A program made the translations under genes and the position numbers. Positions 9,644 through 57,400 of a DNA stretch of 64,000 nucleotides are shown here, one piece after another. Positions within the stretch are counted from its first letter, which is position 1. Every line of letters starts with the position of its first letter. The DNA is from Notolepis coatsorum (taxonomy: Eukaryota; Chordata; Actinopteri; Aulopiformes; Paralepididae): positions 29,225,131-29,289,130 of the forward strand of contig OZ020585.1 in NCBI GenBank assembly GCA_963971535.1. Reading direction: 5' to 3'. Under the pieces are notes generated by a model. It was not told the origin of the DNA, searched no databases, and saw only the letters and a list, made by a program, of their open reading frames with translations.

Positions 9644-9711
9644 TCATGCATGTCAGTTTATGATTGATAGATAACCATCTTACTAAGACATCCTATCTTT
9701 TCCTCTCTCAG

Positions 9712-15700: not shown

Positions 15701-18232
15701 CTTATTTTATGTTCTTTTACTAGTTTTAGCCCTACTTATTTTAAGTTCTTTCTCCTCTCTTACTAGTTTTTATGTTCTTCCACACTGTAGCGCCTTGAGA
15801 TTTGTTCCACAAATATAAAGCGCCCCTACAAATTGAATATATTATTATTATTATTATTATTATTGACCGTTCCCACCCATCCGCAGTCCTTCCGTTGGCC
15901 TGGCACCCGGAGAACGTGGCTAGTCTGCTGCTGATATGTGGTGGCAGCATGTGCCACACTGTGTTGGTGAGCAAGGCCTTCACCCGACGAATCCCTGAGA
16001 TCTCAGAACTCCTTGTCTACATCGTGCTGGTGAGAGGACCTCTATTGTTATTAAAAAAAAATTAAAAAGCTATTTCCTAAACTGAACTTAGTAGAGGAAG
16101 ACACATTTGAACAAGGGTTTTAGGATTTAGGGCAGTTTGTAAATTAGTATGAATACTTTAAAGGAGATTCAGTTATGGTTTTTCTTTCCCTTGCCTTTTG
16201 TACTGGTGTCATTGGCCATTCTTTTTTAAATACAATACATTTCTCTCCAGGAGAGAGAGCTAACATTCTTTCTATGTGCTAAAACTGCTGGAAATACTTG
16301 CTTTTATTTCTGCTATGTTACACATAGCTGTTGGTATTGACAGGATATCTGATAGCAGTATATGTATTGGTGCATCCCTATCCTATTATTGTCCTGCTTC
16401 CGCTTAGTGATTTTATGATTTTCTTGCCAGGTCTTTTAACACTTTTAACAACGCCAAAAACGTTGTACGACGGGTTTCAAGTTCATGCTAATTCTGCCAA
16501 ATCACGGCGTACAGCGTTATTTTGATCATATTTCATATTTTCGCCATGGTATTCATATTTCCCTCACGGAGCCTTGTCTGATGCTGTGGGACTCGGCACA
16601 ACTCTGCAACGCTTCAATACTGCCACCTGGTGGATGATCGGCAAGTTGCCAAACCGGAAGTGGCCGGTTGGATATCGGTGCGTCTCCTAAATCCGTTTGG
16701 CCACTCGCATATCGTCGCGGGACTCAAGACACACACCGTGATATGGATCGCTGCCATAACTCAATAATCGACATGATTTGGGCGTGTATTAGTATTATAC
16801 AAACCGCAAATGGATCTACTCGATCCCCATCAAATAACTGGGATCTTTTTGCTCCAGTGTCATCGCCCAACGGTAAGAGGAGGCTGACGTTATTTTCAGC
16901 GTGAGTGTTTATTATTATCCATACAAACTGCTCTGATCTATATATCACCCATACTACATGAAGCATTTAACGACGATCACGGAATTATAAACGACCCCCC
17001 CCCCCCCCCCCCCCGTTCACCCGTGCATGATCAGTCATAACGTTTAGGACCATGTACAGTTGAAATCTTTAATATAGCGTGGATCGGAACCAAACGGCAT
17101 TTGATAATCTATATATGCATTTATGCCTATATCTCACGTTCTAGGAATTACTGCAGAAAATGATAAAAACATATTTATACTCTAGACAGTATTTTCATAT
17201 GCATGTGTGAATGAAAAAGTAAAACGTTCCTACATCCTGAACGATAGATAATCGATGTTGAATGGGCCATAGTAATGTCAATTTAGCAATACAATTTAAA
17301 AAGTTATAGCCCTGCAAAGAAGGTGAACATCTCCATAGACTTACAGTGCTGGCAGAGAATGGTATAAGCTGATAAAACTCCATGGCAGTTAATGTGTTAA
17401 GGCTGTCTTAAGACATTCTCAGTCGACTAATAGTCAAAGACTTGGTTGACTAATACATTAGTAGATTTAACCCTCTGAGACCCTGTCTTTCAGAGGCTTT
17501 AGCGGGCTGAGTATTACATCTAGAGTGAATATACTGCATGGGAATCCATAGGTACCAAGCATAGAACCCGCTCAGTGTGGTGACATACCGCCGGTCCCAT
17601 TTTTCTGAGAAAATATTTTAAAGGTCCCATGCATTATAAATGTCATTTTTCAGTCTCTAGCATTGTATTATAGTAATAGGAGTTCGTATCAATGTGTTTT
17701 AGGGTCTAAATACCATATTGGCGAATTGCTCCGTTTCAGCCCAACCCCTCTGTGCCTCTAGTAAATCGGGTCATTTTGATTTGAAGTCCCTGAGCACGTC
17801 ACTGGGCGCTGTGGATAGACACAGTGATGCGATTGGCTCTGTGGTTGGAGCTAATGCCCGCCCCCATTCTACCTAGACTAGACAGCGAGTGGGGCTGCGG
17901 GGCCGAGAGGAAGAGAGAGCCGAGAGGGAGCCGAGAGAAAGGAAGAGAGAGGGAGGGAGGGAGAGAGAGGGGGCACTTGGGGGGGGGGGGGGGGGGGGGT
18001 ACCTGCCGGCCGCGCGCCACACGGGAGATTGAAAGAAAGAAAAGAAAAAAGTTGCCTCGTCTCAGCAGCGAGAGCCGAGTGGGAGAGAAAGGACAGAAAG
18101 GAAGAGAGAAGGAGGGAGGGAGAGAGAGGGGGCACTTGGGGGGGGGGGGGACCTGCCGCACGGAGGTCCGCGCGACACACACCTCCGAACGGGAGAGTGA
18201 TAGAAAGAAAAAAAGGAAGAGAGAGGGAGGGG

Positions 18233-18274
<42 letters not shown>

Positions 18275-21200
18275 GGTATAAATGATTATTTGTGTAAATA
18301 AGGTTATACGCCGACCATTAAGAAAATACATGTTAGTTTAGGAATAAGGGGCAGGTAACTATATAACTATAAGATTTATTCTTCTTCCTGCTCCTTTTGT
18401 CCATGGAATGACTATTTATGATTTTTTAATGAAGAAACTATGATTGTATTATTCCATGTGGCAAATAAAAACTCTGAACTGAACTGAACTCTCTCTCTCT
18501 TCCCCCCCCTCCCTCCCTCCCTCTACCAGTGCAGACTGTGGTCTGACTGTCACTCAAAGTGCTTATGGGCGGAGCCAGGCCATAACAGCCTGATTTCTCG
18601 AGGCTGAAAAATTATGGTTTCGAGTACTTGATTAGAAATATAAAACAATGAATTTTTTTGAAAAAAAAATTACAAATGTCTTCAATAGACTAACAGGAAT
18701 TGTGTAAAGTTGCCCAAATAGTGCTAAGAATAGCAGTGCATAGCCCCTTTAATAATTATCAAAATATCCAATTTGGGGTTTGTCACATTAACTCATTCCC
18801 CGCCAACAACGAGTTTACTCGTTATTGGGAGCCGACGCTTGAACGGCAACAACGAGTATACTATATTTTTGATTGTTTTTCCTTTTTTTCGATATTTGTA
18901 TTCATTATTCATCCAGGGACCTTGGTGTTACCATAGGGAATGAATCTGAGATCGCCAAAGTGCAATACCAGCCGCATCCAGCTAGATGGCGGTATCGAGC
19001 ACCCTTTGAAACCTTGTATCTTGGCCTGTGTAACGTCAAATGTCACCGGGCTCACTTTTCTTTGTCGTGCCAGTCTAGCGGTTCTCCCGGTTGCATTGAA
19101 GCGCGTCAAATATGACCGATCCATATGTTGTGGTGGGTTATGTCGTGGATCAAATGGACATCAGATGTACCAGATGGCGATCAAACAATTGGAATATTCT
19201 TTTTGGAATACTCCCGATCACAGGTAAGGACTATCTGACGTCAATTTTAGCTTGATCGTGCAATGCTTTTATACCGATCGGGCTGATAAGCGTTTTTAGT
19301 AGGGATGCTCGATATTGGCTTTTTTACCTATACCGATATTGTCCAACTCTTAGTTTCCGATACAGATATCAACCGATACCGATATATGCAGGGTCCCCCC
19401 CCCCATTACATATCTCTTGTTGTGGAATTAACACAACATTATGCATACTTTTGACAATAAATAAAATCAGAATTTGTTCTTACTTGCTTGCCTAAATAAA
19501 GGTTATAGAAATGTAAAAAAAATATATATATATATTTGATTTTTTTTTTAAACCGATACCGATATTTTCCGATATCACATTTTTATGCCGATAATATCGG
19601 TAGGCCGATAATATCGGACATCCCTAGTTTTTAGTGTTCAATACGAATGCCGTTACTGCCAATCAAATAATCAGAAACGCCCCCCCCCCCCCCCCCCCTT
19701 CATGCATTCATGATGAAACATAATACCTATGATATAGATTTGATTTGGGAATAATAGCGTGTACAGGCAAGAAACGGCAATGTTTATAGTAGAATTGACG
19801 TATAAGGCTATTACTCAGCCCTTCGGGAATTACCCCAGACCACGCTATAACCATACTTATATTCACCACTGTTGTGAAGGGCCAGATTAAACCGAATATA
19901 TATATTTATTTATATATATATATTTAATTGTATTTGTATATTCTCTAATATTCCCTGATATCCCTTGTATATTCCTTGTACAATATGCATTGAATATCCA
20001 TTCTAGCCTACTGAACATCCCATAATAGTCTCCATTCTACTATTGGTCGAGACCTTGGTGCCAGGCTGCCATACCCCTCAGACCCAGTTCAAACGTACCG
20101 CTCGACATGTACGAACAAGTCCTAGTTCCGCGTAGGAATTTGGCTACCGCACCACTAATGGGACTATTTGTTCATAGTGCGTATATATACTGCGCTACTA
20201 AAGTAGGACTTTCTTTTCAGTCCAGTTTCTTACCCTCCAATAGAGTCACAGACGTAAAGCCTCCCCGCGATGCCACGTGTGGGAGTAAGGCCAAGTTCGG
20301 CCTACCATCGGTATTGAGACATCGTGTATATTAATATTTGAATAGTCATATTTGGCACTATATCGTCGAGTTGGACGTAGTCTATTAAGCTAATAATAGT
20401 CTGTTAATATATAGTGCTTCGTGCGGTGAGAATACTACCGTAGTCAGTACCCCATCGTTTCGGGCAGAGAACTGGCTGCTTACCCAGGGTGGCTGACCCT
20501 ATGTGAAGCTGCACTCGAGGAGCCCCAGAGCCGACGAGCGAGTGGACCTGTATACCGGATTATTCTACCGACGACAGCCCGCCTTCCCAGGCACGGATTA
20601 TGCTTTGGATACTTTGATTATTCTATGGATAAAGACCCCTGACACTACCGTGTGTTGGAACCCCCCCCCCCCTGGAGAGGACGCAAGGTGAGGAGACGCT
20701 CTGCAAGACGAGGTCTCTCCACATCTCTCCCCCGTGGACCGGAGAGAGCCGGCCCACAAAGAGTCCACCTGCTTTCATCTGTGGTCCAAGGATCGCCGGC
20801 GCATTGAACGGCACTACAGTGGGTTCACCTGGGATACCCTTGGCCGGACGAGGCAGCTGGATTCTACCCCCCCCCCCCTCCTACTCCTGTCGGCTTACAA
20901 GCGACCGGATTAACCCCCTCTAGTGTATCCAGCCTATAATCATTAAAGTATCATTGCTGTTATTCCTTAACTATTCCAGGTCGTATATTTACCACCTGCG
21001 CCTTCAGAGATTGGACATTATCTATTGATATACCGACGAATACTCCTTGCCATAAAAGTGCATACTATTTCAATTCATAAATGTAATTAAGTGATTAAGT
21101 GTTTATTCTACACACCATCGCTGTGTAGGAAATAAAGACCTGTTTCTAATTCGTACATTTGTGTTGGATCCGTTTCATCTACGTGAGAGTGTTCATGATA

Positions 21201-24200
21201 ATATATTTATGCCGTGTACTGGGTGGCCGAATATTAAGTACAAAGGTAGTGGTAGTAAGTATCATATCTAGTAATACAGTCAGGGAATTGTACCCCTCAG
21301 TTACAATTGGTCCTTCGAGCCGGAGGGTAATTAGTGTAATATTAATATAGTGTTATTAATATTGAAATGGCCTATGATGAACACTCCACGAAACGATCCT
21401 CCTAACCAACGCCCGCAGCGCGAACGACGGCTCCCTCAGTACTTAGAGGCTTACGCTGTCAGTCAACAACCTAGTCTTCTACTAACAGTAAACGCGGTAA
21501 AACTAGAAAGTAAAAGTATGTCTAACCCCAACGCCCAGACTACCCCGACCATAGAGGCCCCTACGGGTTCTAATGTAACTGACCAAGTTCACGGTGGGGA
21601 CCAGTGGGAACCAGACATGACTTCACACCCCGCCAGTACTGAAGAAGTAGTCCCCGATGAGTCCCGGGAGGAATACAACGCTACCGAGAGAGAACTCGGC
21701 ACGGAAGAAGACGGGGAGAGCACCGTGGAGATAGAGCTCCAAGGCTCCGCAAGGAGTACCCCGAGGGAAGGCTCCCCTATACCAGGGGTTCCCAAACTTT
21801 TCAGGCCAGGGCCCAGAAAATAAGGCGTCAGAGAGCCGCGGCCCAATGCACATCGTCAGGCTTTTTTTTTTTTTTTTTTTGCCAGGCGACCGATTTTTTA
21901 AGCCAAATATCACTTCAATCCTATTAAGTTAGTTCAAGTTAGTTATTCATTTATATGTGCTATTTATGAGAGGGCTAACTTGTTGCAAAATAATAATGAT
22001 AATAATAATAGCCTTATTAAAATACTATTGTTGCTTCGGTTGTTTTCAGCATTTTATGTGCATAATCTGTTATTTAGTTTGAAATGTTCGTTGAAATAAG
22101 TAGATTTTTCGTTTTTGTTTATTTATTAAGTTAATATAAAACCATATAGTCACATTTTAGAATACAATAGAATAGAATTTTAGAATACAACTAGAAACAC
22201 TGTCCTGGCCTGCTTCTAAGTTCAGTGGCCTGACAAAAAAAAATAAAATAAAAAAAACAAAAAATAAAAAAAATAAAAATAAAAAATAATTATTATTATT
22301 TTTTAATCATCTCGCGGCCCACCCGTGGCTGTTCGCGGCCCACCTTTGGGTCGCGACCCCGACTTTGGGAACCACTGCCCTATACAACCGCCTTCTCCCA
22401 GCGAGGCAGAGAGGACCCTACAGCAGGCATTCCTCGTCAGCCTGAAAGCCTCTACTGAACGCGATAGACTCCAGGGTGAACGTGATCGATTGCAGCTACA
22501 GCAACGGAGCGAAGAAGAGCACATACGCCTGGAAATAAGACGCATTCAGATGGAAGAGAATGTGGCCCGAGACCGAGCAGACAGCCAGCGAGCAGCTGCT
22601 GGTGCTCTACGGGACGCAGAGCGCGACAGACAGCAAGCGCAACTAATAGAACAGCTGATCAGACGGACAACACCCTCTCCCTCCGCCAGAGGCTCCAGGA
22701 ACTCGTCTAGACACACCTCCAGGGCGGCATCCCCTAGCCGAGTAAACAACCCTGAACTTGACCAACAGACGAGGTCTATACCCCCCACAGACCACCTCCC
22801 CCCACCGGTCCAAGCGAGACCTAGCAACCGGGAAGGAGCAGCATATCCTGTGGAGAGGCTAAACCAGAGACTACAAGCACTGGATGACCTAACTGAAGAC
22901 GAAGAGGAAGAGGAGGAGAACCGCGCCCGAAGACAGCACAGTACTCTACCGGACCAGGAGGTCCGGTACAGCCCAGGCTATACTCCCGCGGAGCTGCGCT
23001 ACAGACCCCCGACTCTATACACGGGTGAGCACGACGCACGACCCGCACCGAGGAACAGCACCTGGACAAGCGGGCCATGGTACACTGCCGGTACCAGCCC
23101 ATACCAAGGAGCGGGAGGAGACTCGCCTAGGAGGCCTCTCCCCCAACGCTCGCCGATGTATCCACAGTCAGCGTCATACATTGGCACGCCTATGGTACCC
23201 GACTTCACCCAAGAGAACCGGGCCCAGTATACAGAACTCCGCATGTGTCTGGAGACCATGTTGGTGGATGTATTGGATGAACGCCACAAATACGCCATCC
23301 TACTGCAGCACTTAAAGGTGCCCCGCGCACATAATATAGCGCTCGCCTACGCGACTTCCACCACCCCATACACAGCAGCGCTGGTAGCATTGGACCAGAG
23401 GTATGGGCGCATATGGGATTACGTGATCCAGGAGATCCGACACATCGACCGCTTACCCCCAGCAATAGACAATCGAGCACTGGACGACCTGTCCATCAGA
23501 GTGCAGTCCCTGGTAGGGATGTTGGGAGCGCAAAGAGAGAAGGGGAAGTATGAACTTTACGCCAACTCAAATGTGGAAAGGATCCTGGAGAAGCTGCCGC
23601 CCGCTCGTCAGGAGCGCTTTAGGCGGCAGAGGGACCACAGAGACCCGAATGGCCCCGAACCGAACCTCCTCGATCTAGCAGACTTCCTGGCGAGAGAAGT
23701 CAGCAGCCTACGGCTAGATACATTCGGACGGAGCACCCCTGGCTCCAGAGAAGGAACCAGACGACTAAATGATGGAAGAAGATCGGTGACTGTGATGCAC
23801 CAATCGGAATCAGTACCGAGCAGCAGGAGCCACAGTACCCCCTCCAGAACGGAGAAGTGGAAGATAGTGTGCCCCTACTGTGAGAAAGAACACTGGCTAG
23901 CGCAATGTGACTCCTTCCCCAAGCTGAACGCGGAGGAAGCAGGTCAATGGATAAAGTCCAACAAGCGCTGTTTTCGCTGTGCGCGCTCACACATGGCAGC
24001 CGAATGCCGCTTAAAGAAAAGGTGCACCAAGTGCGATGGAGCCCATCTGGACATACTTCACGACAGTAACAGACGGCGCCCTTCACCTGCACCATCCAGC
24101 CGCAAAGCGAGCGTCATGTACATCGATCCCGCCAGCAGCAGTGGAGCCCGAGTACTCCTAAAAGTAGTGCGTGTGACACTAAGCTACCAGAATAAAGTCC

Positions 24201-27200
24201 TGGACACTTACGCCGTCCTCGATGACGGGTCAGAGAAGACCCTGCTGCTCGCCTCCGCTGCGGCCCAGCTAGGGCTGCGGGGAAGCGAAACCCAAATGAC
24301 AATTCGGACAATAAGACGAGATTTGAAGACGATAAAGGGCGAGAATGTCTCATTCTCTATCGCAGCAAGCGGCCAGCCTGAGCGACGGTACCAGATTGCA
24401 GACGCTTTCACCAGCCAAGAAATAGGACTGTCGCGGTACACATACCCCGTCGCCAAGCTGATGGAGAAATATGCACATCTGCGCAAGTTACCGATCCCGC
24501 TCATAGACAATGCTATGCCGACCCTGTTGATAGGCTCCGACCATGCAGACCTCATTGTCCCGATAGACCGGGTTCATACCGGACCCCGAGGCTGTCCTGC
24601 AGCAGTCGAGACCCGTTTGGGATGGACTCTCCAAGGCCCGCTCGCCAAATCTCTCAACCGAAGTACAGCCACTAGATGTCTCCACTCCCGAGTCACAGAG
24701 GGAGAAACCGCACTCCTGCAACACGTAGAGCGGCTATGGAGCTTGGAACAAATGCCCTTTAAGAATGGAAAGAAAGACATTCGCTCTAAAGATGACATTT
24801 ACGCCATTCACCTCCTCGAGACAGGGACCAAGAGAGTCCCGGTCAACGGCGTGTTGAGATACGCCACGCCACTCCTGCGGCGAGAAGGAATGCCTACTTT
24901 CCACGCCAAGACAGACGCCATAGAACGGTACCTGCTGAACACGGAGCGGCGCTTAGCCAAGAACCCCGCCCAAGAGAGTGTATACCGCGCTGAGATTGAG
25001 AAGCTCATCACAGCGGGACACGTCACAAAGATGGACATTAAAGAGGCTGACCAGACCACTGAATCGTGGTACGTGCCCCACCACAAGGTCCATCACAACG
25101 GTAAAGACCGCATAGTATTTAACTGCAGCTACCAGATCGGATCCCAAAATCTGAATAAAGAGTTACTGCCCGGTCCCACACTCGGCCCCTCCCTACTCGG
25201 CGTTCTACTCCGCTTCCGCCAGGAAAAGGTGGCCATCAGCGGGGACATTAAAGGAATGTTCCTGCAGGTGAGATTAGTAGAGGCGGACAAGCCCCTGTTA
25301 CGGTTCCTATGGAGAGAGAAGCCAGGAGATGAGCACCCAGCCATCTACCAATGGGAAGTCCTCCCCTTCGGAACGACGTGCAGCCCCTGCTGTGCGACAT
25401 TTGCACTACAGAAACATGTAGCAGAGGACCCAGCAGCGGACGGAGAGATCTACACAGCATTTGTCCTCGCCCGCTCGAGAATAGCCCCACGCAAGCAACA
25501 ATCTATCCCACGTCTAGAGCTCTGCGCAGCCCTAGCCGGAGCGCACCTAGCCACGCTCATCCAACGTGAGCTCACCATACCGGTGTCTAGAACAATCCTG
25601 TGGTCAGATTCCACGACGGTACTCGCCTGGATCAAATCGGACTCATGCAAGTACAAAGTCTTCGTGGGAGTCAGAGTCACCGAGATTCAAGACTTAACCG
25701 AAGAGTTAACCGGAGAAACAGAGTGGCGCTACGTTGATACAAAACAGAACCCAGCTGACGTCATCACCTGGGGGATGCCCCTGGATGACCTCACCCGTCG
25801 CAATGTCTACAGTGATGGCCCCGCATTCCTAAGACTCCCGGAAGGACAGTGGCCCATGCCTATCCCGAGGGAAGCAAGTCCAGAGGAGGTGGAAATTAAG
25901 AAGTCTGTGTTCTGTGGATTGAGCACCGTAGCCTCCACCGACCGTAACATAAACGATTGCACGTCCATAGAGAGTGCACAACAAAGAACATTCCTGCGGT
26001 ACCACCCGGAGTGCAAGTCCCCCGCTGATATGTCAGCGGCTAACTACGAGGAAGCAGAATTGCTTCTACTGCAGCGAGCCCAGAGAGACTCGTTCCCCGA
26101 TGAATTGGCCTGTCTACAGGGAGGAAAGCCCGTCCCATCCGACAGCAGATTAATTCACCTGGCCCCCGAGAGCGACGCTCACACCCTCATCAGAGTGGGT
26201 GGTCGCCTACGCAGAGCCCCCAATCTACCGGATGACATTAAATACCCGATCGTATTGAACAGCCGACACAAGGTCACAGAGCTGATTATAAAGAAATACG
26301 ATGAGGATGTACATCACGCAGGAGCAGAAAGAGTCTTCGTGGAAATCAGACGTCGTTACTGGATCCTACAAGGAAGAGAGGCGGTACGACGCTTCCAACG
26401 AACATGTCTAGACTGCCGCAAGTGGCGCGCGCAGCCCAGCATACCAAGGATGGCTGACCTTCCTCCATGTCGCCTCCGAATCGGTGACAAGCCATTCCAC
26501 TCAACGGGTATGGACTGCTTTGGCCCGCTGCACATAAAGAAAGGAAGAGGAACCGAGAAGCGGTGGGGTATTGTATTCAAATGCATGACCACCAGAGCGA
26601 TACACATCGAGCTTCTCCCGACCATGAGCACAGACTCATTCCTTATGGCCTTCCGTAGATTCATATCACGGAAAGGAAGACCGTCTACCCTATTGTCCGA
26701 TCATGGGACAAACTTTAAAGGCGGCGAAAGAGAGCTGAGAGAGAGCTTCCAAGCTATGGGCCCAGAACTTAAGACCCACCTCGCTCCAGCACAGGTTGAT
26801 TTCCAATTCAACCCCCCAAACGCACCCCACTTCGGTGGCACTTGGGAACGAGAAGTGCGCTCCATAAAGACAGCCCTGTACGCAGTACTTGGGGCCCAGA
26901 CTGTGGCGGAAGAAGTCCTAATGACAGTCCTCACGGAGATTGAGGGAGTACTTAACTCGAAGCCCCTCGGATATGTCTCCAGTGATGTGGCGGATATCGA
27001 CCCAGTTACCCCCAACACACTCCTGATGGGGCGGCTAGATCCCACATTACCCCAGACAATGTACCGGCCTGAAGAAGCGAACGGCCGACGAATGTGGAGG
27101 TACAGCCAAGTATTAGCCGACAAGTTTTGGAACAGTTTCCTACTGCACTACCTACCGTCTCTACAGACCCGCCAGAAGTGGGTAAAGGAGAGAGACAATT

Positions 27201-30200
27201 TGACAGAAGGAACAGTCGTCATGATTATTGATCAATCACTGCCCAGAGCTATGTGGCCGGCCGGCCGCGTAAGCAAAGTGATCACCGGTGCCGACGGCAA
27301 GGTCCGAGCAGCTGAAGTGCTCGTCCAGGGTCGCACTTACACCCGTCCCGTGGCAAGGCTCATAGAACTGCCTCGACTCCCAGACACAATCGATGATGAC
27401 CATGACCCTACAACCCTATGACTTTGTGAAGTTGACTGACCCCTACAGCAAACCCTTATGTGTAAATAGACAACGCGATTAATCTGTCTCCGTTTAACTG
27501 ATTAGGTCTGGGACCTATTCAGGGGGTGGCTGTTGTGAAGGGCCAGATTAAACCGAATATATATATTTATTTATATATATATATTTAATTGTATTTGTAT
27601 ATTCTCTAATATTCCCTGATATCCCTTGTATATTCCTTGTACAATATGCATTGAATATCCATTCTAGCCTACTGAACATCCCATAATAGTCTCCATTCTA
27701 CTATTGGTCGAGACCTTGGTGCCAGGCTGCCATACCCCTCAGACCCAGTTCAAACGTACCGCTCGACATGTACGAACAAGTCCTAGTTCCGCGTAGGAAT
27801 TTGGCTACCGCACCACTAATGGGACTATTTGTTCATAGTGCGTATATATACTGCGCTACTAAAGTAGGACTTTCTTTTCAGTCCAGTTTCTTACCCTCCA
27901 ATAGAGTCACAGACGTAAAGCCTCCCCGCGATGCCACGTGTGGGAGTAAGGCCAAGTTCGGCCTACCATCGGTATTGAGACATCGTGTATATTAATATTT
28001 GAATAGTCATATTTGGCACTATATCGTCGAGTTGGACGTAGTCTATTAAGCTAATAATAGTCTGTTAATATATAGTGCTTCGTGCGGTGAGAATACTACC
28101 GTAGTCAGTACCCCATCGTTTCGGGCAGAGAACTGGCTGCTTACCCAGGGTGGCTGACCCTATGTGAAGCTGCACCCGAGGAGCCCCAGAGCCGACGAGC
28201 GAGTGGACCTGTATACCGGATTATTCTACCGACGACAGCCCGCCTTCCCAGGCACGGATTATGCTTTGGATACTTTGATTATTCTATGGATAAAGACCCC
28301 CGACACTACCGTGTGTTGGAACCCCCCCCCCTGGAGAGGACGCAAGGTGAGGAGACGCTCTGCAAGACGAGGTCTCTCCACATCTCTCCCCCGTGGACCG
28401 GAGAGAGCCGGCCCACAAAGAGTCCACCTGCTTTCATCTGTGGTCCAAGGATCGCCGGCGCATTGAACGGCACTACAGTGGGTTCACCTGGGATACCCTT
28501 GGCCGGACGAGGCAGCTGGATTCTACCCCCCCCCCCCTCCTACTCCTGTCGGCTTACAAGCGACCGGATTAACCCCCTCTAGTGTATCCAGCCTATAATC
28601 ATTAAAGTATCATTGCTGTTATTCCTTAACTATTCCAGGTCGTATATTTACCACCTGCGCCTTCAGAGATTGGACATTATCTATTGATATACCGACGAAT
28701 ACTCCTTGCCATAAAAGTGCATACTATTTCAATTCATAAATGTAATTAAGTGATTAAGTGTTTATTCTACACACCATCGCTGTGTAGGAAATAAAGACCT
28801 GTTTCTAATTCGTACATTTGTGTTGGATCCGTTTCATCTACGTGAGAGTGTTCATGATAATATATTTATGCCGTGTACTGGGTGGCCGAATATTAAGTAC
28901 AAAGGTAGTGGTAGTAAGTATCATATCTAGTAATACAGTCAGGGAATTGTACCCCTCAGTTACAACCACGGTATAACACGGGAACGTATGGATGAAGAAA
29001 TTCATTCTTTTTCACATATTGAACGATAGATAGGTGATGTCAAATGGGCCATAGTATTGTATCCATAGCTATAATATAGAATATAGTTATAGCTCTACAA
29101 ACAAGGTGACTCACTCCTATCTTTTAAAGTGTGGCAGTGCTAGAACAGGGCCCGACTAATTCCTGGCGGTCAATGAGTTAAAATCATTTATAAAATTGGA
29201 CTTTTGAAATGATGTCCAACAAATAACAAAAAAACAAGGTAAATTAACTCATCCTTGTAGCTACTCACAAGGAACTGTGCTGTCTGACAAGAGTGGTAAA
29301 AATGGTTACATTTTGCACAAAATCTGTATAACAAGATTTCGGTATGTCAACCCAAAGATTTCTGCAACAACATATACTTCTATCATAATATACACTCTAA
29401 ACCTTCACAAATTTGAATGGGTGCCTAACCAAAACAAAATGTTTATTACAAATCCATGACTATACGTGCTATGTTGCTATGAGCTGCATCTCGAATTAAT
29501 CTTCAAGTTCCCATCTTTCAGATGATGTCACCACTTCTATACTGTTGACCTTTTACCTCTCCCTAAAGATCCCCTTCCCCCCCTAAAAAAATACAGAAAT
29601 GGGTCTATGTGGGTCTCTATGGGTTAATCAACTATTTGTCAAATTTGAGTTTGCAAAAGCGCCTCTTTAAATCTTGCCTACCAGAGATGTGTTTATAATT
29701 CTTCAGGAAATATCTCATTCAGTATGGAAGAACCCCCCATAAAGATCAACAAATCCACTAACTGATTGATATGAATCAACTACCTTATGAGGGGGCAGCC
29801 CTGAAGTCTTTCATGTGTGCTTGGCTCCACCCTCAGGTGTGTGAGAAGGATGGGTACTGTATGAGATGGGCGGTGAAGCTGGCCCAGCAAGTGTGCCAGG
29901 TGTGTTGCAACACCCCTGCAGAAATGGTGTCCTTTATCCAGAACCTGGAGGACATGTTCTCCGATATCACCATGGAGACGTACGAGAGTGCCTTGGCAGG
30001 TGAGTTGGGTTGACTGTCCCTGGGTGTGTTTTTATTCCACAAGGGTGTTGGCCTTCCGTCATCTCTGACATCTGGACTTGCAGGATACAATATTGGCGAA
30101 ATGGATGTTTAACGTCTCATTAAATACTTAAGCTACAAAGTTATGACTCTTCTGACAGCACAGTGGGTGTCACAGTGGGTGACAATATTGTCACAAGGAA

Positions 30201-45486: not shown

Positions 45487-48400
45487 GTAAGATCTTTAAA
45501 ATATTACAACTGTCATTGCATTGTGTTTTTGCTATACGTCGTCGTACAATGATCGTTTTCCGTGGGCATATGTTGAATTGGTAACGCTACTGCTAGCATA
45601 GTAGCTAGCTTGGCTAATCGATGGCGTTGGTGCCACCGCTCAGGCGCAGGCTATGAACTGAAAAGACACTGTTCCGTTTAATACAGATAATAGACTACAT
45701 GCATTATGTCCAAATTAAGAAAAAAATCTCATTTGTACGTGTCGACATGTTCCCAACACCAACACAGTTTTTTCCCAAATGTGAGAAAAGCCGTTGTATT
45801 GGCAGCAACTAGACGGGGCCTGGCCGGCTAACTTTGAGCTAGTTGGCTCAGAGATGGCGACCGTGGAGCCGGGGCGGCGCAGCGCCGTGTCCGTGCTGCC
45901 GACGGCCAGTGTTAGATATAACCAAGTTAGTTACTTTCACCCCACTTCCACTCGCTATGTGGCTAGTGCTTAGTTTGTGTCATCGTTATGCCGTCAAAAC
46001 GGTAGATTTTTTTAGCTATTTTGGCGGCTTCCAAGGCCTCGAGTTGAGTTTGCTAACTTCAACGTATCGTTAGCTAACTAAACATCATGTCTGCCTTCTT
46101 CTGGTAGCAGCACGTTAGCACGCAGGTCACGTGATGAGCCCTCTGGTCTGTTTAGTCCAGGCTTCTGATATCAGCCAACATTCACTGACTATCAGATCTG
46201 GTGGATCTGGCTTCTTCAGCCAGCCATGTCCCATCATGTGACCAAACATGCTACCAAAATCAGTATCACAAACGCAGAATTGGTTTGATTGAAAACGTTA
46301 TTAACAGATTGCAGAATGGGTACAGTACGGCTCAATACATACAATTGTTAAGGGGATGCAGACCAGAGAGAGACGTTCGTCTTGTTTACATCATCATTAC
46401 TTTATTGGCCATCAGTACACCCAGTTCTGCAGACCCACTGGCACTTTATGGTCAGATTCAATGGTGAATGTAATTGTGCCAATTAAATAATCAAGTAAAG
46501 ATTTGTTCATTTGTCTCATCCTCCAGGGCACAAGTGCGGAACAAGACAACCGCTTCAGCAACAAACAGAAGAAGCTGCTGAAGCAACTCAAATTTGCAGA
46601 ATGTCTGGAAAAGAAGGTACAATTCACAAACGGTGCCCTACCCCTCAGTTTGATATTGCCCTTTTAGAGGGTATAGCCTTTATATAATTGTATTTTCTTA
46701 TTGTGAACATAGCCTACAAAACATACAATGCATTTATCCTACTTACACGTTTGGTCCATCTAGTCAACACCAAGTGTAGCTCGTTTCCAGAAGTCATAGA
46801 ACTCCACTGAAGATATATCGATAAGTTATGCATTATTGTTGACTATTTTTTCATATTGCTAGGTTTTTAGCAAGTTTTTCCTTACCTTTGCTGGGGTATG
46901 TCTGGGAGTGTTGCATTTATTTATTTTACATTTTATTTAGGATTTCATGGTGTGTTTTGTTTTGTTCTTGATTCATTGTGATGTTTCTTCTTGACTTGTT
47001 TAACTCATTGAACGCCACGGATTAACCTCATCCTGTAGTAGCTACCGCCAACGCTGTAAACGATGGAACTCTCTCACCTTGTTTGCAGGGCTATAACTAT
47101 TTAAATATTATAGCTACGGATGCAATACTATGGCCCATTTGACATCGAGTATCGTTCAAGATGTGAAAAGGAATATTTTTTCCATCCATACATACCCGTT
47201 TTATACTGTGGTTTTAAGAGCGGTTTAGGGTTTAGGCTATGAAAACAATGCACAACCAAGCTGAAATTGACGTTAAATTGCTCTTACCTGTGGCTGATGA
47301 GATTCCAAAAAGAATATTCAAATTATTTGATTGCCATCTGCTAGATCGTATGTCCATTTGGCCATAACCCCCCACAGCATAATGAATCAGGCGTCCCGAA
47401 AGCGACTCAGGCCATGTCCAGACTAAGACGATCTTGGTAGTTTTAGGCAAAGTATTTGATCGTTTGCATCGTTCTGCCAGACGGAACTGCGTTCTGGCAG
47501 CCTGAAGACTGTACTTTTTGATACCACCTTTCAGAGTGCGCAACTCTAAAGACGGCTGGAGACGCCCCCCCGTTGCGCCACCATATTTACAAGCGATACG
47601 TTCTCTCCTGAACCGATGACGCGTATATAGCCCACCTCCCCCTTACCCCGCATGCGCAAACTCTCCAACCACCGTCAACAACAGATTGCCATCTCCCTTA
47701 ACACTTTGAGTGCCAGCGACATGTATTGTCGTCTTATCATGCCCCCCGTTGAGTGCCGACGACGCGAATTGTCGCTTTATTTTTTTATTGGCGATCTGAA
47801 TTCATATTTCATCAACCGAGTCTCCCGTTGGTACAGCAGACCCTCTAGGACAGAGGTGTCAAACTCATTTTCACAGAGGGCCACATCAGCATTATGGTTG
47901 CCCTCAAAGGGCCAAAGACCATATAAATGTTAATGTAATGTAAAATAAATGTAGCTACTCATTTACATATTGTTAAACATGTTGTTTCTGTATTTATTAC
48001 TTATTAAAGTTATACATATTGCATATGCATTTGCATAGATGTAAAAATATATGTTAGCTTATGTTATTTTAACAAATAATTTGTTTATCAGAACCCCATA
48101 TTACTCCATTAATCAATGATCAAACCATTCAAGTAAATAACAAAGAAGATCATCAAATACAAGCTATGACATTAAGTTTGTTCAAAACCTTTTTGTCACA
48201 GTCAAGAGGGGCAGAACTAACAACTGAGCTGCAAAGAACACGTGGGACAGATGTAGCAGATGTTACAAAAACAAATGGCTGCACACAACCTTGCAGAGGC
48301 CATACATCCAACTAATGGAAGATAGTTTAATTAACTTTAATTAACAGATTGCAGAATTGGTACAGTACAGTACAGCTCAATACACACAATTGTTAAGGGG

Positions 48401-51400
48401 ATGCAGACCAGAGAAAGACTTTCGACTTGTTTACATCAGGGTCCACCATTTTCAATTCGTAATGAAATTGATATTATGTGTCTGCATGAACACACAGCTG
48501 TAACTGTACTAAAAAATAACAAAATAAGGGTTGTCTCAGTTCACAACTATATTGGTTAAGTTTTGGGTGGGACTTGTTTGCGTCCCTACAGCTTCTTATT
48601 CAATTGAGCGAGATGCTCGGTTATGTCAGACAGCCAGTTTGCATCTGACAGTTCAGACAATATTTCTTCAACCCTTTGTTACCTATTCCGCCTGGATCTT
48701 TTTTGTATTTTGGGCTGTAAAATTGAATGAATGTCTGAGGAGTAAGTGCTTTTGGCTTTTTTCCTTTGTTACTTCATCAATACCTCAGATGTTCAACATA
48801 CATGTATGTGTAAGAATGTGTAATAACTAAGGCTGTCAAAGTTAAAGCTTTATTAACGCATTAACCCACAATTATTTTAACGCCGCTATTTTTTAACCCA
48901 AGATTAATGTTTAAAAAAAAAAAAAAAAAAAATCTTATTATAAAGTTACTACTTATGATTAACAAAGGCATTCGATGTGTGTTCTATTATGATATGTGTG
49001 TAGTGTTCTGATAACTACTATTGGTGAAGCGATGTCGAGATTCATTTGGTTTGGCAGCGGGAGCTAGATTTGCGAGAAGCATGCTGCAACTGCAGAGCTG
49101 ACAGTTGTGCGCGCACAGTGCAATACTCCAATTCAGCCATTGGCAATTCAGCTGTTGGGTGGGTGGCGCTGCTGAGCGGTCCCCAGACCGGACCTGAGAG
49201 CGCCGCTGGCTCTGCAGCTCTGCAGTTGCATACTATTGGTATGTTCTTCATTGGGAGGCAGAGATATAATAGTCATCACGCAACGTTTATATTTCACGAT
49301 AATGTTGCCGTCTCTCTCTGCCAAATTTCTCAGTTCTTCGCTTGATATAATTAATACAAATGTCCAATATAACGGAATTCGTTAGCTCATAAAAATGTGA
49401 TTATAACCTTGCCTATTGAAATACTGTACACCTCCAGTACAGTAGTTTGCGTGTCAGGTAGACCATTGATTGACAGTCGATTCTGCCAATTACAACGTCA
49501 CACCGTTGCACTCTGGCCGTCCGGCGCTGCAGCTGGACCCTATTGCCACACCGCTTGCACTCTGGCCGTCCGGCGCTACAGCTGGACCCATTGCCCACCT
49601 CTGCGGTTGATAACGCTAGCCAAGTTAGCTGTACACACATACAGTGGGCCAGTTGTAGGGGTGTAACAATGCATCGCAATGCATCGATCCTACTTTGCAA
49701 TATTTACAAAACATGACATTGTTTTCGAACTCTAGCCATGGGGAAATGTTTAGCCAATTCATGTTAAATTTGTATGTCTTCCCTCCGGCTCCAGTGGGTG
49801 TAGCTTCGCTAGCTACAGTGGCTACATTGGGTGCTACAGTGGGTGTAGCCTTGCTAGCTTGGCCAACTTCGCTAGCATGCTGGCTAGCGTCAGTATCTTG
49901 GTTAACGTTAACCATCACCTCTGTAACATGAGCTGCCTCGCCTGACTTCTCATTCTCCGGTATCTTTCGCGCAAAATAAAAATGAATGTGCTTCGACATG
50001 GCTGTATTATTGTTTGACTCAGACAGTGACGCAGCCGCTGATCATTACTTTCGGTTTCCAGTCGCGTGACCACAGGAAACTACTGTGATTGGAACGTTTA
50101 TGCGGCTGTGAACTGTGGGACTTGTAGTTTTTTTAACGATTCTCGCAGCGGAGAAAAAAAAGGACGAATGAGAGGCTGTACTCTGCACTCGCTGGCCCCA
50201 CTCGCACGCCGTGCGAGTACTTGATTTTGCATGTTCGCACGCACATATTTTTAGGGGCATATGCGAGCAATATGGTCGCACTGTAGAGCCCTGTGTCTGT
50301 GTGTGATGTTGTGGAAATGAGAGAATCGATTTCTCAGCTTGCTTCTATAGCGTGCATAAGTACACATATACTATCGATAATCTAGCGTTTATTTGAAAAC
50401 TATTCATAAATAGGCCGACAAATGAGCGTGTCTAGTGTATTCGAGAATATTCCAATAAATGCCGTTTATGAGGGAATCTTTCTATTTTCCGGACATTTTC
50501 GAGAGAACGATAGCTTTTCGAAATGCTATAAAAAGGATATGAACCGATTGAAAAAAACAATCCGTTTCGACAATGTTGACTGCAAACAAGTCATTGATAA
50601 GCGACGGGCAGATTAGACACAGCCATAATTTAAAACATAGAAAAACGCATAATCTAACATTGAAGTGGGTGGCGGCATTCAAGGGGGTAAAAAGGAAAAC
50701 ATGGCCGGCATCGAAAGTGTTAACAGTGTTACAGAGCTTGATCGGGCTTTTACAGCTAAATGTACTTTTTCTGAAAACCCAAGTAGTAGCCAAGCATACT
50801 GTTCCATAGCATACCCCTTCAGTTGATCATGACAAATCCTCTCTTACCTTGACGATTAAAAAGCCTCCATAATTTAGTAAATAGTAGAGTTGTACCGATA
50901 CCAGTATCGGAAATGCCGCCGATACTGCCTAAAATGCTGGTATCGGTATCGGCAAGTACACGTGAATTGTAGCCTCCGATCCCATGATGTAATTTATCTC
51001 CTGCCGAGTCCTGCGGAGAGTGAGGATTATAAAATGAACATGTTTTAAAGTGTGATGCTGTGTCATTTTAACAGCAGATACACTTTCTTAAATTCCATTG
51101 TCCCCGACAGTGCTGGTGTGACGGGGAGCTCGGACGGGATGTGTTTTGCTGGTGTTATGATAGCATTAGCTGGAAAGATAGCTAGTTGGAACAACATCCA
51201 CTTTAACGTTACATCAAATCAGATGATCGCCTGTCCTTTCTCCAGGACCTAACACTGTCCGTGACCGGCTATCAACAATAATGCACCCACGGTGAATTGT
51301 ATAAGTAGCTACTGACTAGCGTTAGCTGACTATTACTAACGTTATCAAATGTCAATGCGGGAAGACGAGCTAGGTCAGTTAGCTTAGCTTGATAACGTTA

Positions 51401-54400
51401 CCGTGTCTAAAGTTGGTGCTATTCACATAATCCAGCAATAATGGCTGCAGACCTGCAAGCAAAGTACAGCAAGTGCCAAAGGATAAGAGTCTGAGGCGGA
51501 GTTTCAAAAGAGAATGTTGAATATTTATTTTGCATCAAAAATCACAACATGAACGTTCTATCTCCCACTAGCTTACAGACTGAATAGGGTATATCTGCAG
51601 AGCCACTGAGTAGCGAGTGCAACACCGTTTAATGTCCGTGTGGATCATTGGAGTAGGGTATATCTGCAGTGCTGCAGCCCATACTCATTGATTAATAATA
51701 CTAATACAAATCTATACAATCACCTGTTGAATAAATACCATTACTTTCTAGTTATGACTAAAAAAACAGTACAACAGTATCTGTTAAAAAAAAAAAAAAA
51801 TATAATTTATATTTTTTTTATTTTTATTTTTTTTATGTATGCACTGGTATCGGATAAATATCGGTATCGGCCGATACCCAAAGCTTAGGTATCGGATCGG
51901 AAAGGGAAAAATGGTATCGGAACATCTCTAGTAAATAGTATTCCCATGGCTGGTGCTGGGCTGTAGCCAGCTAGCGTTGATGCTATTCAATGCTATCAAC
52001 ATTAGCAAAATAGCTTACCAACTGAGGTAAACGTTAAATACGGACAACGTTTGCTACAATTACAGTGGTATCCTGAGGTAACGTTGGATACAGACAACGT
52101 TTGCTAGTCGAAAGGACTGGACACACACACACGGACAAGTTAAACATCAATTAATTTATTACAACACAGGTAGTTTGAGCTGCCTCCGACCGCACCACGC
52201 GGCTATTATATTATATACGGCTTTGTACTCTCCTGCCGATTAAAATCCACAGCTCTTCCTCCTCCTCATCACCGGCTGCCTGTGAAGCTGCACTTGTGCT
52301 GCGGTGTGTGTGTCTCTCCTATCCCCGTTGAAAACTAGCGTCGGCTCAAAACAAAAGCGCAGAACCGGACACACAAGTTGTTGAAAACAACGATCGACAA
52401 CACTTCCGGTCAGTTTTCAAAATAAAAGAGCGAAAAACAGGAAAGACATTTATTTTGTAAATTTTGGCACACACTTATTATCTTGACGTTTTCGATTTTA
52501 CAGAAACCTTTTTTTTTAAATGAAACTAAAACGAAAAAGATCAAAATAGTTTTAGTCTGGACAAGGCCTCAATGTGATCGGGTATCCCCCTCGGTCCAGG
52601 CTACTCAAACTCCACCCGGAGTAATTTCAATGATACACAGAGTCATACACAGTCTCAAAGGGAGTGCAACATCGGCCGCATTCCACCAGGCGGTGGTATT
52701 GGACCTTTGCGATCTCAGACACATTGGCTATGGTACCACAGCCTTCCTGGATGATTTATGAATGGAAATAGCGAATAAAAGGAATAATGATCCAATAACG
52801 TATATATATATACGTGGTTGGCGTTATTCGATTGTCGGACAAACACGTATATGTATGAACGGCGCTGAATGCGTAAGGAAGACGTTTCCGGCCCATGGGG
52901 ACATTAACATGTGCTGTCGGACCTTACAAATGAATTTGATTATGATAACAAACAAACAAAAAATTAAATTGAGTAAACTTGAGTTTCTGTCTCGTGTCTT
53001 GACCCCTAGGTGGACATGACGAAGGTGAACCTGGAGGTCATCAAACCTTGGATTACCCAGCGAGTGACAGAGATTCTGGGATTCGAGGATGACGTCGTCA
53101 TAGAGTTCATATTTAACCAGCTGGAGGAGAAGGTAACGTCATCCCCCTTTTTTTTTACAGAAGCAAAGTGTTAAAAATAAGGGTATTGCTTAATGTGTAC
53201 AGAATCAATGAAAGGTTGTAAGAAAACAAAATCGCTTTCAATAAAAAATCTGAATTTAAATCAAATTGGGGTAAGACTAACAAGTGGTATCCAGTAGTAT
53301 TAGCATAAAAACAGATATGATATAACCTTGTTGTTACTGTGATGTGACAAAATGACTTTGCTCAGCAGTCTTCTAATGATGATGTGATTTATGATTTAAA
53401 AGGCCTGAACCAATATGGATGTTATACCTTGCATCAGAAGTATAGCACCAACACCTAATTAGCTCTCCTGAGCCCAAAGTCACTGAGCCCAACTCTCCCT
53501 TCACGATGCAGTGTGTGGTTTGAGGTGAGTTATGAGCAGGGATCGACAATGTCATGCTAGCGATAGACACACTTGAACAATGCCATATAATTGTCTCCTT
53601 AGATAATCTATCTACAATGCATTGTTAATGATATTCAGTGGACCCTAATTGGAATTGCACCAGTAGAAAGAAGGGCATTTTAAAATGACATACCCCATTG
53701 CTAATGGGTTTATGGCCTGATATTTTTGGAAGTCACATTTTGGCTGTGGCAATGAGAATCTGCATAATATTTCCTCAAGACTGCAGTGTGCATGTGCCCT
53801 GTTCTTATAGCCCTATAGGTTATTTGTTTCCCCATGTAAATCAGTACACTCTGACTAGTCTTGTTGTCAGTAAAGGTTTTCCCTCTGTCATATGTGCTTT
53901 GGAAGATGATAATTTGAGGAAACCATAGTAATTTATATTAAAAAAAATAAAAAAAGGCATTCCTACATAACATTGACAGTATCCTTTCCCATAGCATAGT
54001 TGATTGCAAGTCTTAATATATGATGCATAGAGAGATGTTAATTATTTTTAATGAATAACCCTCCTAGGATTCTCATTCAATTTAAGGTGCGGAAACCCAG
54101 TAAGGTATCGGTTAACTTTTTAGAATGCCTAATTTAAACACACCCCATTCATGGCTGGACCGAGGATGTATGTTGAGAAGAAATATTTTTGCATAAGAGA
54201 AAACAAATGTTTTGTTCTTTTTAGATCGCACTTATCACGTTGTTTCTCATGAAAAATATTACTTTGGTCTTATTAAATAGAAAGTCCACCCTAAAACAAT
54301 TGTCGCTTAAGTATAGACTTGTTCATATTATTCACAAAATTTAAACTGAGCTCGCTGTAATATTATAGAAATAACATCTGAATTCTATTTTAGGGAGGAT

Positions 54401-57400
54401 TTTCCTTTTTTAAGGATTCTGAACATGTAAAAAGTATCAGTTGGATAAAAAAACAAACATAAAATGACATTTAGACGATTATTTAAATAATTGATTGATC
54501 CAATGATAATTTATCAATCTAAATTATTCATTTTCATCCCCAAAACCCATTTTTATTTTTTTTACTTTTTTACATTTTAGGCTTATTTGCGTGAAATTTC
54601 TCCCATGAATGCACTTTGAAATCCTTGGTCCAGCTGGGTTGTGGTTAACTTTAGCATACTACTGCTTACTCAGATCGTGTAAGGGAAAGCAGTTGCATAA
54701 ACTATCGCTTTGATTTTTATTTTGTTTGCCATATTGTTTTGGGGATAAGTTGGGAAAGCTAAACGTAAAGGGTACCGTAGCCCATAGGAAAAGGCCTGTG
54801 ACCTGTGTAGCAAGAGAATTACGGGTATTTAAAAAATCATGCTTGTATCAGTTGTTGAAATAAAACCCCTTCATGCACTGTGTACTCATTATTGCTTGTT
54901 CGTCTCTTGCAATTTAGATAAATGATATTACATTAAAGCTCATGGTGGTTGAGTCTCAAGCAGTAGGGAGGCGGAAGCAAGCCAAGGGAGCTCCGTACCC
55001 CCTGATCCCGTGGGACTCACTGAAGACACCGGGACTGTACTTGCAGTGTTGGGTTTTGATGCACTCTGTATTGTGGATATCTGTTTAATCTCCTGGAGAA
55101 TTAGACTGTGGGGGAGACAAGAGAACATGATGGGAGACAGGGATGCAGTGGGAGGTGGGTGTGATTCTGGTAGTCGAGACAATTTGGTGTGTTAAAAATA
55201 ATTGTGGGTTGTAGCAAATACATTCTTAGAACTGTAATGATAGCATAGCAGTTGTATTGCATGCAGTGGGATGATTTAGAATTTTTATTTATTTTTTAAT
55301 CATGTTAGATATGGTCTCCCCTCAGCTAGCTCACATTATCTGTTCCAAGAGGATGTGAGTAGGATTTAAATGACAACCTCAGTTTGATAGGTTGCAATGA
55401 ATCAGTCCACTATTGGACCATGGTTCTTGAATATTTTTAGTCTTTTCCCCCCCAATTTTCTTTTGTGTATGATTCATTTTACATAGCTGTAGCTTAGTGA
55501 GGACCATGGGGTAGGCAGTCACCTGAATAGGACCCTCTTACCCCCCTAAGCCTTCTTGCCATGTTTAAATGTCCCCTTGGTCTTTTCTCTCTCCCCTTCG
55601 TGTGTGTGTTGCAGCACCCCGACAGCAAGATGATGCAGATCAACCTGACAGGCTTCCTGAACGGGAAGAACGCCAGGGAGTTCATGAAGGACCTGTGGCC
55701 CCTGCTGCTCAGCGCCCAGGAGAACATTGCCGGCATCCCCTCTGCCTTCCTGGAGCAGAAGAAGGAGGAGATCAAACAGAGACAGGTGAGAACCATCACC
55801 TGTTCTACTCAACTCAAAATAGACATCCTGGATGTCTCTTTTTTTTAACCCTTTCACTACCACACTACTAAATGGTTAACCCTTTCACTGCGACAATACA
55901 GAAGGTTAACCCTTTCACTGCCACACGACAAAGGGTTAAGAAGTCTTGCAACTATTTTTTTTATTTTTTATATATAACTTTATTTTTGAGCTTTTACTTA
56001 ACACTATGTGGACCGTCCACGAGTTAACTCGTGATTCGATTCCACCCGTTGAGGACCAGAGCCACGAGTTAACTCGTGGCGAGTTGTTATTGTTTTATTC
56101 CATATTTATAACGCTATTAACGTCCGCGATCGACATGCAGGACCTACCCACATATTTGATTTTCGAAACATGCAATACCGGCCAGATCCGCTTAGGGGCG
56201 CCATCGCTCCACTGCAGTATCATTGAGGGCGATTGAAAAAATAATCCTTTTCACTGTCTGTGGGCGGATCATATGAGCCTCGGTTCCAAACGAAGACCCT
56301 CCATCTTTGATCCCGTTACCGAGCGCATATTTCAGCCTGGAATAATGGGGTTTATGATTAGCCAATGGACATATCGATCTACCAGATTCCGATGACTAAT
56401 GACGAAATGCTGCCGGCGATCACATGGCCTGACGGTAGGATACTATTCCCCCAAATTACAGCTGGATTGGACATTGTTTTAAAACCTAATGTGATCGATC
56501 AGTGACATTGGCTACCTGAACGCACACTGTATTGCTATCAATAATACTAATCGGCGTTCCCCGCCGCCCCCATTTCATCCATAGATGCTCTGTAATAGTC
56601 CGGATGCTACGCAGTTTGTTTTATTTCATTCGTATATATACAGCAGAAATGGCGTTTGATATAACGGCGTCAACGTTTTTATCCTATTATCTAGCTCCCC
56701 AGAAAAAAGAGGAGACGAAAAGTGCGATAAACCTTATATTCACGACGCTATAAAATGACAACCAACCGATGGATTTTTATTTTCTTTAAGCCATTATGAA
56801 GGCACGGTTTATGCACTCAAGTGACAATGAGAATGGACAGATAGCAATACTATAAATTATATATATAGCTCTTAGAAAGTACATTGGTTTGTAAACAAAC
56901 CTCTGTCCTCTGGCCTATAAATCGGCGCAAGACTGGTCGCCAAAGTGTTAAGCATCATACAGTTCACATTAATAATATGACAACCACCACCACAAGACAG
57001 ACAGGCCAAACATGACTCACAGGACAGGACAGTGTTGTATGGTTGGGGGGGAGAGAGCTGTATTTGCTCTTGGTATGTCGGGTCTGTTTTGGTTGTGTCA
57101 TGGCAGTCTTTAACCGTCCGACGGCTCATATGTTGTCCATTTCGACCAGTGTCTGTCTTATGTCTCGGCATTCATTCTCAGCAGGAATGTAATTTTTTCC
57201 ATTGAGCTTATCTCTTCCACTATTCCCCTCCATGTCTCTTTGTCTGGAGCGGCCTCTTTGAGCCAGCTCCTTGTGATGGCCTTTTTACCAGCTATTGTCA
57301 TGATTTTGAACAGGTACAAGTCTTTATGGTCTCCTCTGTGGTCAAACCCAGGTATATCAACTGGGGTTCCATGGGGAATTCGTAGCTAAGGATTCTGTAC

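Follow-up and report, generated by a model that had tools for sequence, protein, structure and literature searches.

Matched, family-specific palindrome pairs at the left ends of non-autonomous TTAA transposons in Notolepis coatsorum

Introduction

What keeps two short palindromes alike within one transposon while their sequence changes from one transposon family to the next? The question is raised by a stretch of 64,000 nucleotides from Notolepis coatsorum (contig OZ020585.1, positions 29,225,131 to 29,289,130, in an assembly of 3.42 Gb), referred to here at its full length as the window, in which six left ends represent six non-autonomous transposon families of the piggyBac superfamily. We name these left ends E1 to E6 (E5 is P6 and E6 is P5 of the initial annotation). 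That annotation described a palindrome about 20 bp inside each left TTAA and a second like it about 44 bp further on, the two agreeing within a copy and disagreeing between copies, and it proposed either paired binding sites that had switched specificity or gene conversion between the sites. The observation of matched, changing palindrome pairs is confirmed here, with corrections. As to their cause, the elements are very probably non-autonomous members of the piggyBat branch, whose matched left-end palindromes would be paired docking units for one transposase and would change together.

A palindrome pair at each left end

E6 (window positions 55998-56951, plus strand) is a full non-autonomous element running from TTAA to TTAA, about 210 bp past an exon of an SRRM1-like gene. 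With tip positions counted from the first base after TTAA, as throughout, its plus strand carries an ACC motif of the G type at bp 11-13 (56012-56014), a first palindrome, CACGAGTTAACTCGTG, at bp 17-32 (56018-56033), and an identical second palindrome 45 bp further on (56063-56078); CACGAGTTAACTCGTG is also the family form at both sites. All eight base pairs are symmetrical at both E6 sites, compared with seven and five in E3, six and six in E1, six (centred at 27.5) and eight in E4, and five and five in E2, on a scale where scores of at least 7, 6 and 5 occur across the window at frequencies of 0.001, 0.007 and 0.036, respectively. Site 1 of E5 falls outside the six best-scoring palindromes of that element. 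The palindromes of E6, E3, E1 and E4 can be recognised without recourse to other copies, and those of E2 and E5 depend on family evidence; several window copies have decayed, E5 lacking one CG, and the family forms are cleaner. In E1, E3 and E6 the centre of the first palindrome falls at tip bp 24.5; E2, with a tip 3 bp longer, has it at 27.5. The E5 sites are odd in length, with arms CGAC/GTCG, and are centred about 1.5 bp off those of the other families.

First-look candidates in the genome numbered 3462 for E6, 11157 for E1, 7654 for E2, 7061 for E3, 3788 for E4 and 1753 for E5. Forty were scored per family, and the copies used, those most similar to the window copy, make up a small and biased sample; for E6 these are 40 places, itself included, with 93-100% identity over at least 93% of the query (the best 40 of the 3462). 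Among the 88 genomic left ends read, the site-2 region was best and uniquely matched by the site 1 of its own family, out of six families, in 86, so the alignment of genomic copies bears out the pairing seen in the window. Each family majority is different, and neither unrelated sites nor a single master palindrome in decay describes the copies; the latter explanation is rejected. The annotated spacing also stands, the two sites lying 43-45 bp apart in 70 of the 88 copies. In seventeen E1-family copies the spacing is longer by roughly a helical turn, at 54-56 bp, and in one E4-family copy it is 49 bp. The 54 bp noted for E1 is correct for the window copy and is a sub-variant in its family, where 15 of 31 copies have 54 bp, two have 55-56 and 14 have 43.

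Palindromes follow the element, downstream flanks the position

To test the matching, site 1 of each family was set against all 16-mers in the site-2 region of each family, and the pairings were then permuted. For the six window copies (site 1 being located by register in E4 and E5), the true pairing ranked 1 of 720 permutations, against 278 of 720 for the flank holding the G motif and 709 of 720 for the downstream flank. Eight ends are free of selection for matching, namely the family majorities of E1 to E6 and the ends of two autonomous lineages, C1 and C4, described below. Here palindrome identity was 0.875 within elements and 0.564 between them, and one pairing of 40,320, the true one, was as good; the inner octamer alone gave 0.844 within and 0.621 between (2 of 40,320), and the downstream flank 0.427 and 0.469 (39,566 of 40,320).

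Four further families, N1, N3, N4 and N5, come with one copy each from the flanks of fetched loci (L055, L043, L027 and L064, respectively) and, together with piggyBat, make thirteen ends. Identity in this set was 0.817 within against 0.558 between elements, a result reached by 0 of 200,000 permutations, and the own partner came first, alone or in a tie, in 11 of 13 ends when one strand was compared and in all 13 when both were; the downstream flank, in 12 ends, gave 169,213 of 200,000. The four families were chosen by eye from 253 grouped TTAAC starts, partly for a visible second site, which favours matching, and this test excluded N6, which has half a second site, N7, where a second site is not clear, and the insert-broken end in L055 at 1435. 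With the eight ends plus N1 and N3 to N7, fourteen in all, the own partner was best or tied in 11 on one strand and 12 on both. Some families are akin (E1 with N3; E2 with C1 and C4), so that all these permutation counts overstate independence. Palindrome identity was likewise 0.80 within elements and 0.53-0.54 between; the 14 bp of downstream flank reached 0.34 within elements and 0.48 and 0.53 for the same site across families. The palindromes thus track the element, and the downstream flanks track position across families.

Not every base of the unit is free to change. The eight bases between the two CGs vary among families, whereas 12 of 13 left ends have CG at bp 19-20 (the exception, C1, has it one base later) and 11 of 13 have it at bp 29-30; each base of GCC at bp 11-13 recurs in 12 or 13 of the 13. 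In the 88 genomic ends, CG is retained at 19-20 in 80 and at 29-30 in 78. The annotated difference between copies therefore holds for the inner bases, and the sites as a whole are not unrelated. A closer comparison is afforded by the C4 group, where the inner bases change faster than the remaining end: over seven left ends identity is 62.5% in the inner octamers, against 96.4% in the CG anchors and 91.5% elsewhere, with 12 of 16 inner columns varying versus 12 of 64 others (Fisher 4e-5). Six of these seven ends are from places 88-95% identical to C4 over 703 bp; 8 of 41 listed rows were read as left ends, of which L122 was dropped (site 1 deleted), and C4 and C29 are the two among the eight that are tied to a transposase domain.

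The pair is confined to one end of the element. The right ends have GCC or ACC at bp 11-13 in five of five; at bp 24.5 a palindrome is absent from all five (2-3 of 8 pairs), and none of the five holds a good counterpart of the left-end site (best match 7-11 of 16).

The piggyBat model and autonomous relatives

In sequence, this left-end anatomy is assignable to the piggyBat type. The left end of piggyBat (Myotis lucifugus) has a G motif, read by the transposase core, at bp 11-16, 55-60 and 99-104, with an imperfect palindrome 3 bp after each; P1LE, at bp 19-30, is bound by the two cysteine-rich domains (CRDs) of one dimer, and the right end lacks palindromes (PMC11707139). Its left-end oligonucleotide holds CGAGTTAAGTCG at bp 19-30 and CGTCTTAACTCG 44 bp further on (PMC13405395); at the same place E6 has CGAGTTAACTCG, one base from CGAGTTAAGTCG. 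Moreover, CRD residues R543 and E545 of piggyBat contact C19, G-19 and C-20 (PMC11707139), the very CG pair that is near-fixed in the families described here. The likeness takes in TTAA, the tip CACTT, the palindrome at bp 19-30 and its repeat about 44 bp on (some 1.5 bp off in the E5 family and 1 bp off in C1), the one-ended pair, an RSE-bearing CRD and the transposase core. The available accounts of piggyBat differ from our elements in three sites, a single palindrome type and the G motif GCGGGA, whereas here there are two sites, one type per family, and GCC.

A PF13843 search of the genome yielded 116 scored transposase domains (the best 116 of 2364 candidates), 11 of them, by our own count, with an internal stop. 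Membership of the DDE_Tnp_1_7 class comes through such autonomous relatives only (116 scored domains; 1.1e-80). Lineage C1 (G000:C1:18221379) has an open frame of 560 aa and a left end, TTAACACTTTGGGTGCC, with site 1 AACGCTTTACAGCGTC and site 2 GACGCTGTACAGCGTC; the left-end sites of lineage C4 are AACGCCTTACCACGTC and GACGCCGTACCACGTC. In the PDB, the C1 transposase core best matches piggyBat (5.5e-84), followed by the piggyBac entry 6x67 (2.9e-31). Its C-terminus also matches piggyBat (1.2e-13), CRVCSRRGIRSETRY aligning with CRVCSVHKLRSETRY, RSE to RSE, which gives this autonomous element a CRD of piggyBat type; the C1 RSE is put at R543-E545 on the assumption of 6 extra residues in the 578-residue chain. 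Across 7 aligned CRDs, drawn from 11 C-termini fully read, the R and E of R-x-E are invariant.

All 40 scored matches to the first 552 bp of C1 are 100% identical, and for 9 of the 40 a transposase domain is listed on the same strand, 3.2-5.2 kb further downstream. Identity of at least 40 copies over 552 bp implies that the C1 lineage moved very recently, and it is probably active now or was so very lately. Left ends were also sought for lineages L090, L094, L100 and L110, and none was found with confidence; the L110/L093 lineage, whose transposase has a CRD without R-x-E, adjoins a TTAA end with a palindrome at bp 24.5 and no CG at 19-20, a combination that would agree with the contacts in piggyBat, but the end is not secured. 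On the minus strand of L113, position 1109, lies an element with site 1 CACGGACACGTCCGTG and half a second site; a transposase domain follows 1.8 kb downstream.

Proposed docking units and the alternatives

Paired docking would work as follows. The left end would consist of two docking units for transposase dimers, mostly 43-45 bp apart, the first combining GCC at bp 11-13, a short motif in the place of the piggyBat G motif, with the palindrome at bp 19-30. A single transposase must, on this model, dock on both units, and the palindromes of one element would stay alike because the same protein has to fit each of them. The outer CG of every half-site would be fixed by the conserved R-x-E pair of the CRD, and the inner eight and next outer bases would drift, or be driven, to new values in each lineage, so that the palindrome might serve as a family address. 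By analogy with piggyBat, CRD dimers would bind these sites and the protein would read the inner bases; each change of palindrome would have come with a change in the CRD, and the families may no longer cross-mobilise. Of the two proposals in the initial annotation, paired binding sites gain strong support from this comparison, in register with the piggyBat CRD site, in spacing, in one-sidedness and in the recurrence of the design on autonomous elements. Switched specificity is borne out for the DNA, where the two sites co-change, the downstream flanks do not follow and the inner bases are faster; for the protein, a switch of specificity is the likely, if unproven, next step.

A number of results weigh against paired docking. 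Whereas piggyBat has three units, no third was seen here, the best third-site match averaging 7.0-8.5 of 16. The right end of E6 has a near-palindrome of its own, GGTTTGTAAACAAACC (56886-56901, bp 54.5, 7 of 8 pairs), unlike the left-end site and retained in other E6-family copies. The relatives that the annotation had suggested looking for do exist in C1 and C4, with a piggyBat-like CRD in C1, but no autonomous partner is tied to any of E1 to E6, and four of the 11 C-termini (L093, L101, L118 and L119) have other CRDs without R-x-E, which were excluded from the alignment. C4 and C29 have an identical CRD loop, CLRRGLRGETRY, and differing sites (CGCCGTACCACG versus CGCTGNNCAGCG); the loop alone therefore does not determine the site sequence, and the inner bases might be weakly read. 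Within copies of the C4 group the match is modest (156 of 5,040 permutations). Finally, the upstream flank is itself more alike within than between elements, at 0.570 and 0.493 in the eight ends (220 of 40,320) and 0.582 and 0.493 in the thirteen (22 of 200,000), and in N1 and E5 part of the unit may have been copied. A simple code from CRD loop to site sequence, considered separately, is unsupported by C4 and C29.

That upstream signal is what would be expected if gene conversion, or repeated duplication of a 44-bp unit, kept the sites alike with no shared reader, an explanation we regard as improbable. The signal is weaker than that of the palindrome and highest in N1 (0.81) and E5 (0.75); identity of the upstream flank is 0.53 within elements, compared with 0.62 (site 1) and 0.45 (site 2) between families. 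A copied unit would bring its flanks with it, and the 14 bp downstream have the same identity, 0.34, within elements as between site 1 and site 2 of different families, and follow position instead; unit copying is therefore disfavoured, and gene conversion, the annotation's second proposal, finds no support as a general cause while keeping some room in individual families through the weak upstream signal. Rather doubtful, too, is the idea that the CG anchors alone matter and that the inner bases are free, matching only through a recent common ancestor of the two sites. Near-fixed CGs beside variable inner bases would fit it, as would the modest inner match within C4-group copies and the unlike sites of C4 and C29 under one CRD loop. 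Free sites, however, would diverge as the two downstream flanks of a copy have done, and the inner octamer is instead more alike within elements than between them, at the 2 of 40,320 given above.

Paired docking by the transposase also has to be set against two further explanations. Were the palindromes sites for a host protein, such as a repressor, the exact piggyBat register, the lack of a right-end counterpart and the recurrence of the design in autonomous elements whose CRDs resemble that of piggyBat would all be hard to understand, and we give this very little credence. Retention of symmetry while the sequence changes would suit a hairpin or cruciform in which symmetry alone counts; yet the family sites of E2, E5 and C4 are imperfect palindromes whose two copies in an element still share their sequence, and CG keeps a constant distance from the tip, making such a structure a most improbable cause.

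Comparison with other systems

The piggyBac element of Trichoplusia ni shares TTAA and, at bp 17-33, a 19-bp internal repeat of palindromic form to which a CRD dimer binds; it differs in having palindromes at both ends (PMC7351741); its CRD is reported to be structurally non-homologous to that of piggyBat (PMC11707139). The coral CMITEs are TTAA families of miniature inverted-repeat transposable elements (MITEs) with piggyBac-like kin, whose 60-bp inner consensus holds GACGAGTAAAATCGTC, an inverted repeat by eye; unlike the elements described here they are about 100 bp long, and their families differ less in the internal region than in the terminal inverted repeats (PMC2872659). The tip CCCTTTCACTGCCA is identical to the left repeat of CMITE family VI (PMC2872659). 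Human MER75, MER85 and Looper are piggyBac-like with subterminal inverted repeats, and bases that differ between MER75B and MER75 break these repeats; the available part of that source gives no account of matched palindromes that change between families (PMC12324416).

In the open-access literature we found no report of such co-changing palindromes, subscription journals lying mostly outside that search. Bacterial REP (repetitive extragenic palindromic) sequences pair with a cognate RAYT (REP-associated tyrosine transposase), which belongs to another enzyme class and another domain of life. A scan for the two-site pattern gave one match in viral contigs, with nothing element-like in the part read, and two in prokaryote contigs; the conserved right-end block had no match in viral contigs.

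The elements in the window

The annotated family traits of TTAA ends, a length of about 950 bp without inserts and common blocks hold in the comparison of E1 to E6, with a correction at E4, which ends in TTA at 52874-52876 rather than in TTAA at 52885. Block identities are 70-82% for E1/E3, 63-77% for E1/E4 and 71% over 157 bp for E1/E2; E6 shows 57-65% with the other window elements in blocks of at least 130 bp. The TTAA target duplication of the piggyBac superfamily is present at both ends, apart from the E4 left tip and from E5, which is known from its left end. Short terminal inverted repeats are represented by tips of the type TTAACNCWNTNNNNRCC, present at either end with no more than one mismatch in E1, E2, E3 and E6; a few of their bases are degenerate. 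At about 950 bp, with no transposase and with many copies (1753 to 11157 first-look candidates per family), the elements have the character of MITEs or other non-autonomous elements. In E4, none of the five reading frames scanned (29 listed) matched a transposase; no frame of 150 aa is listed for E1, E2 or E6, which were not scanned. Divergence from the family majority is 1.2% for E6 (8 copies), 2.5% for E2 (30) and 5.4% for E1 (30), figures from the copies nearest the window copy, so that true family ages may be greater.

Of the remaining elements, E1 (8687-9643, plus strand) has palindromes CCCGATGATAGTCGGG (family CCCGAGGATAGTCGGG) at 8707-8722 and, 54 bp further, CCAGAGTATAGTCGGG (family CCCGAGTATAGTCGGG) at 8761-8776. 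On the same strand, E2 (16436-17400), with a tip 3 bp longer than in its family, carries AACGTTGTACGACGGG (family CACGTTGTACGACGTG) at 16459-16474 and CACGGCGTACAGCGTT (family CACGGCGTACAACGTT) at 16503-16518. E3 (18788-29181, plus strand) has AACGAGTTTACTCGTT, also the family form, at 18808-18823 and, 43 bp further, a decayed AACGAGTATACTATAT (family AACGAGTATACTCGTT) at 18851-18866. It is interrupted by a long terminal repeat (LTR) retrotransposon of BEL/Pao type, whose open frame is flanked by direct repeats (19869-20962 and 27530-28621); two compared 300-bp pieces of these are 100% identical, and the identical repeats point to a recent insertion. E4 (47000-52876, minus strand), with inserts and with its left tip decayed to TTA, has a decayed first palindrome (family CACGCATATATACGTG) at 52842-52857 and ACGTATATATATATACGT (family CACGTATATATACGTT) at 52798-52815, the TA run of which exceeds that of the family. 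Within its span lies the plus-strand left-end piece E5 (47698-47846), with GACATGTATTGTCGTC (family GACGTGTATTGTCGTC) at 47718-47733 and GACGCGAATTGTCGCT (family GACGCGAATTGTCGTT) at 47761-47776; another repeat cuts it after CTCTAGGA. The family copy L078 is broken after CTCTAGGA as well, as E5 is at 47846, and the two interrupting repeats look different by eye, as if there were a common insertion preference.

The SRRM1-like gene beside E6 has exons at about 53010-53132, read by eye, and at 55614-55785, the latter matching SRRM1 in the PDB (E 1.3e-29). Directly before E6, at 55845-55939, stand three head-to-tail units of about 30 bp starting TTAACCCTTTCACT; similar arrays occur in L014, L020, L027, L030, L047, L049 and L066, and tandem arrays are reported for the coral CMITEs (PMC2872659).

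Implications

A bolder extension, tentative and in our view less probable than its negation, is that palindrome turnover is adaptive: each wave would move both sites and the CRD to a new address, escaping the non-autonomous elements that parasitise it, or a host repressor, and the genome would hold a dozen or more separately addressed families, one of them moving now. Taken at the strength of the evidence above, the families form a natural series of joint change in the address of a transposase and perhaps in the protein that reads it; fixed positions can be told from free ones base by base, and one lineage has apparently been active very recently. Such a series would make the evolution of specificity and the escape from non-autonomous parasites directly testable. 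Furthermore, the families may supply orthogonal piggyBat-like end pairs.

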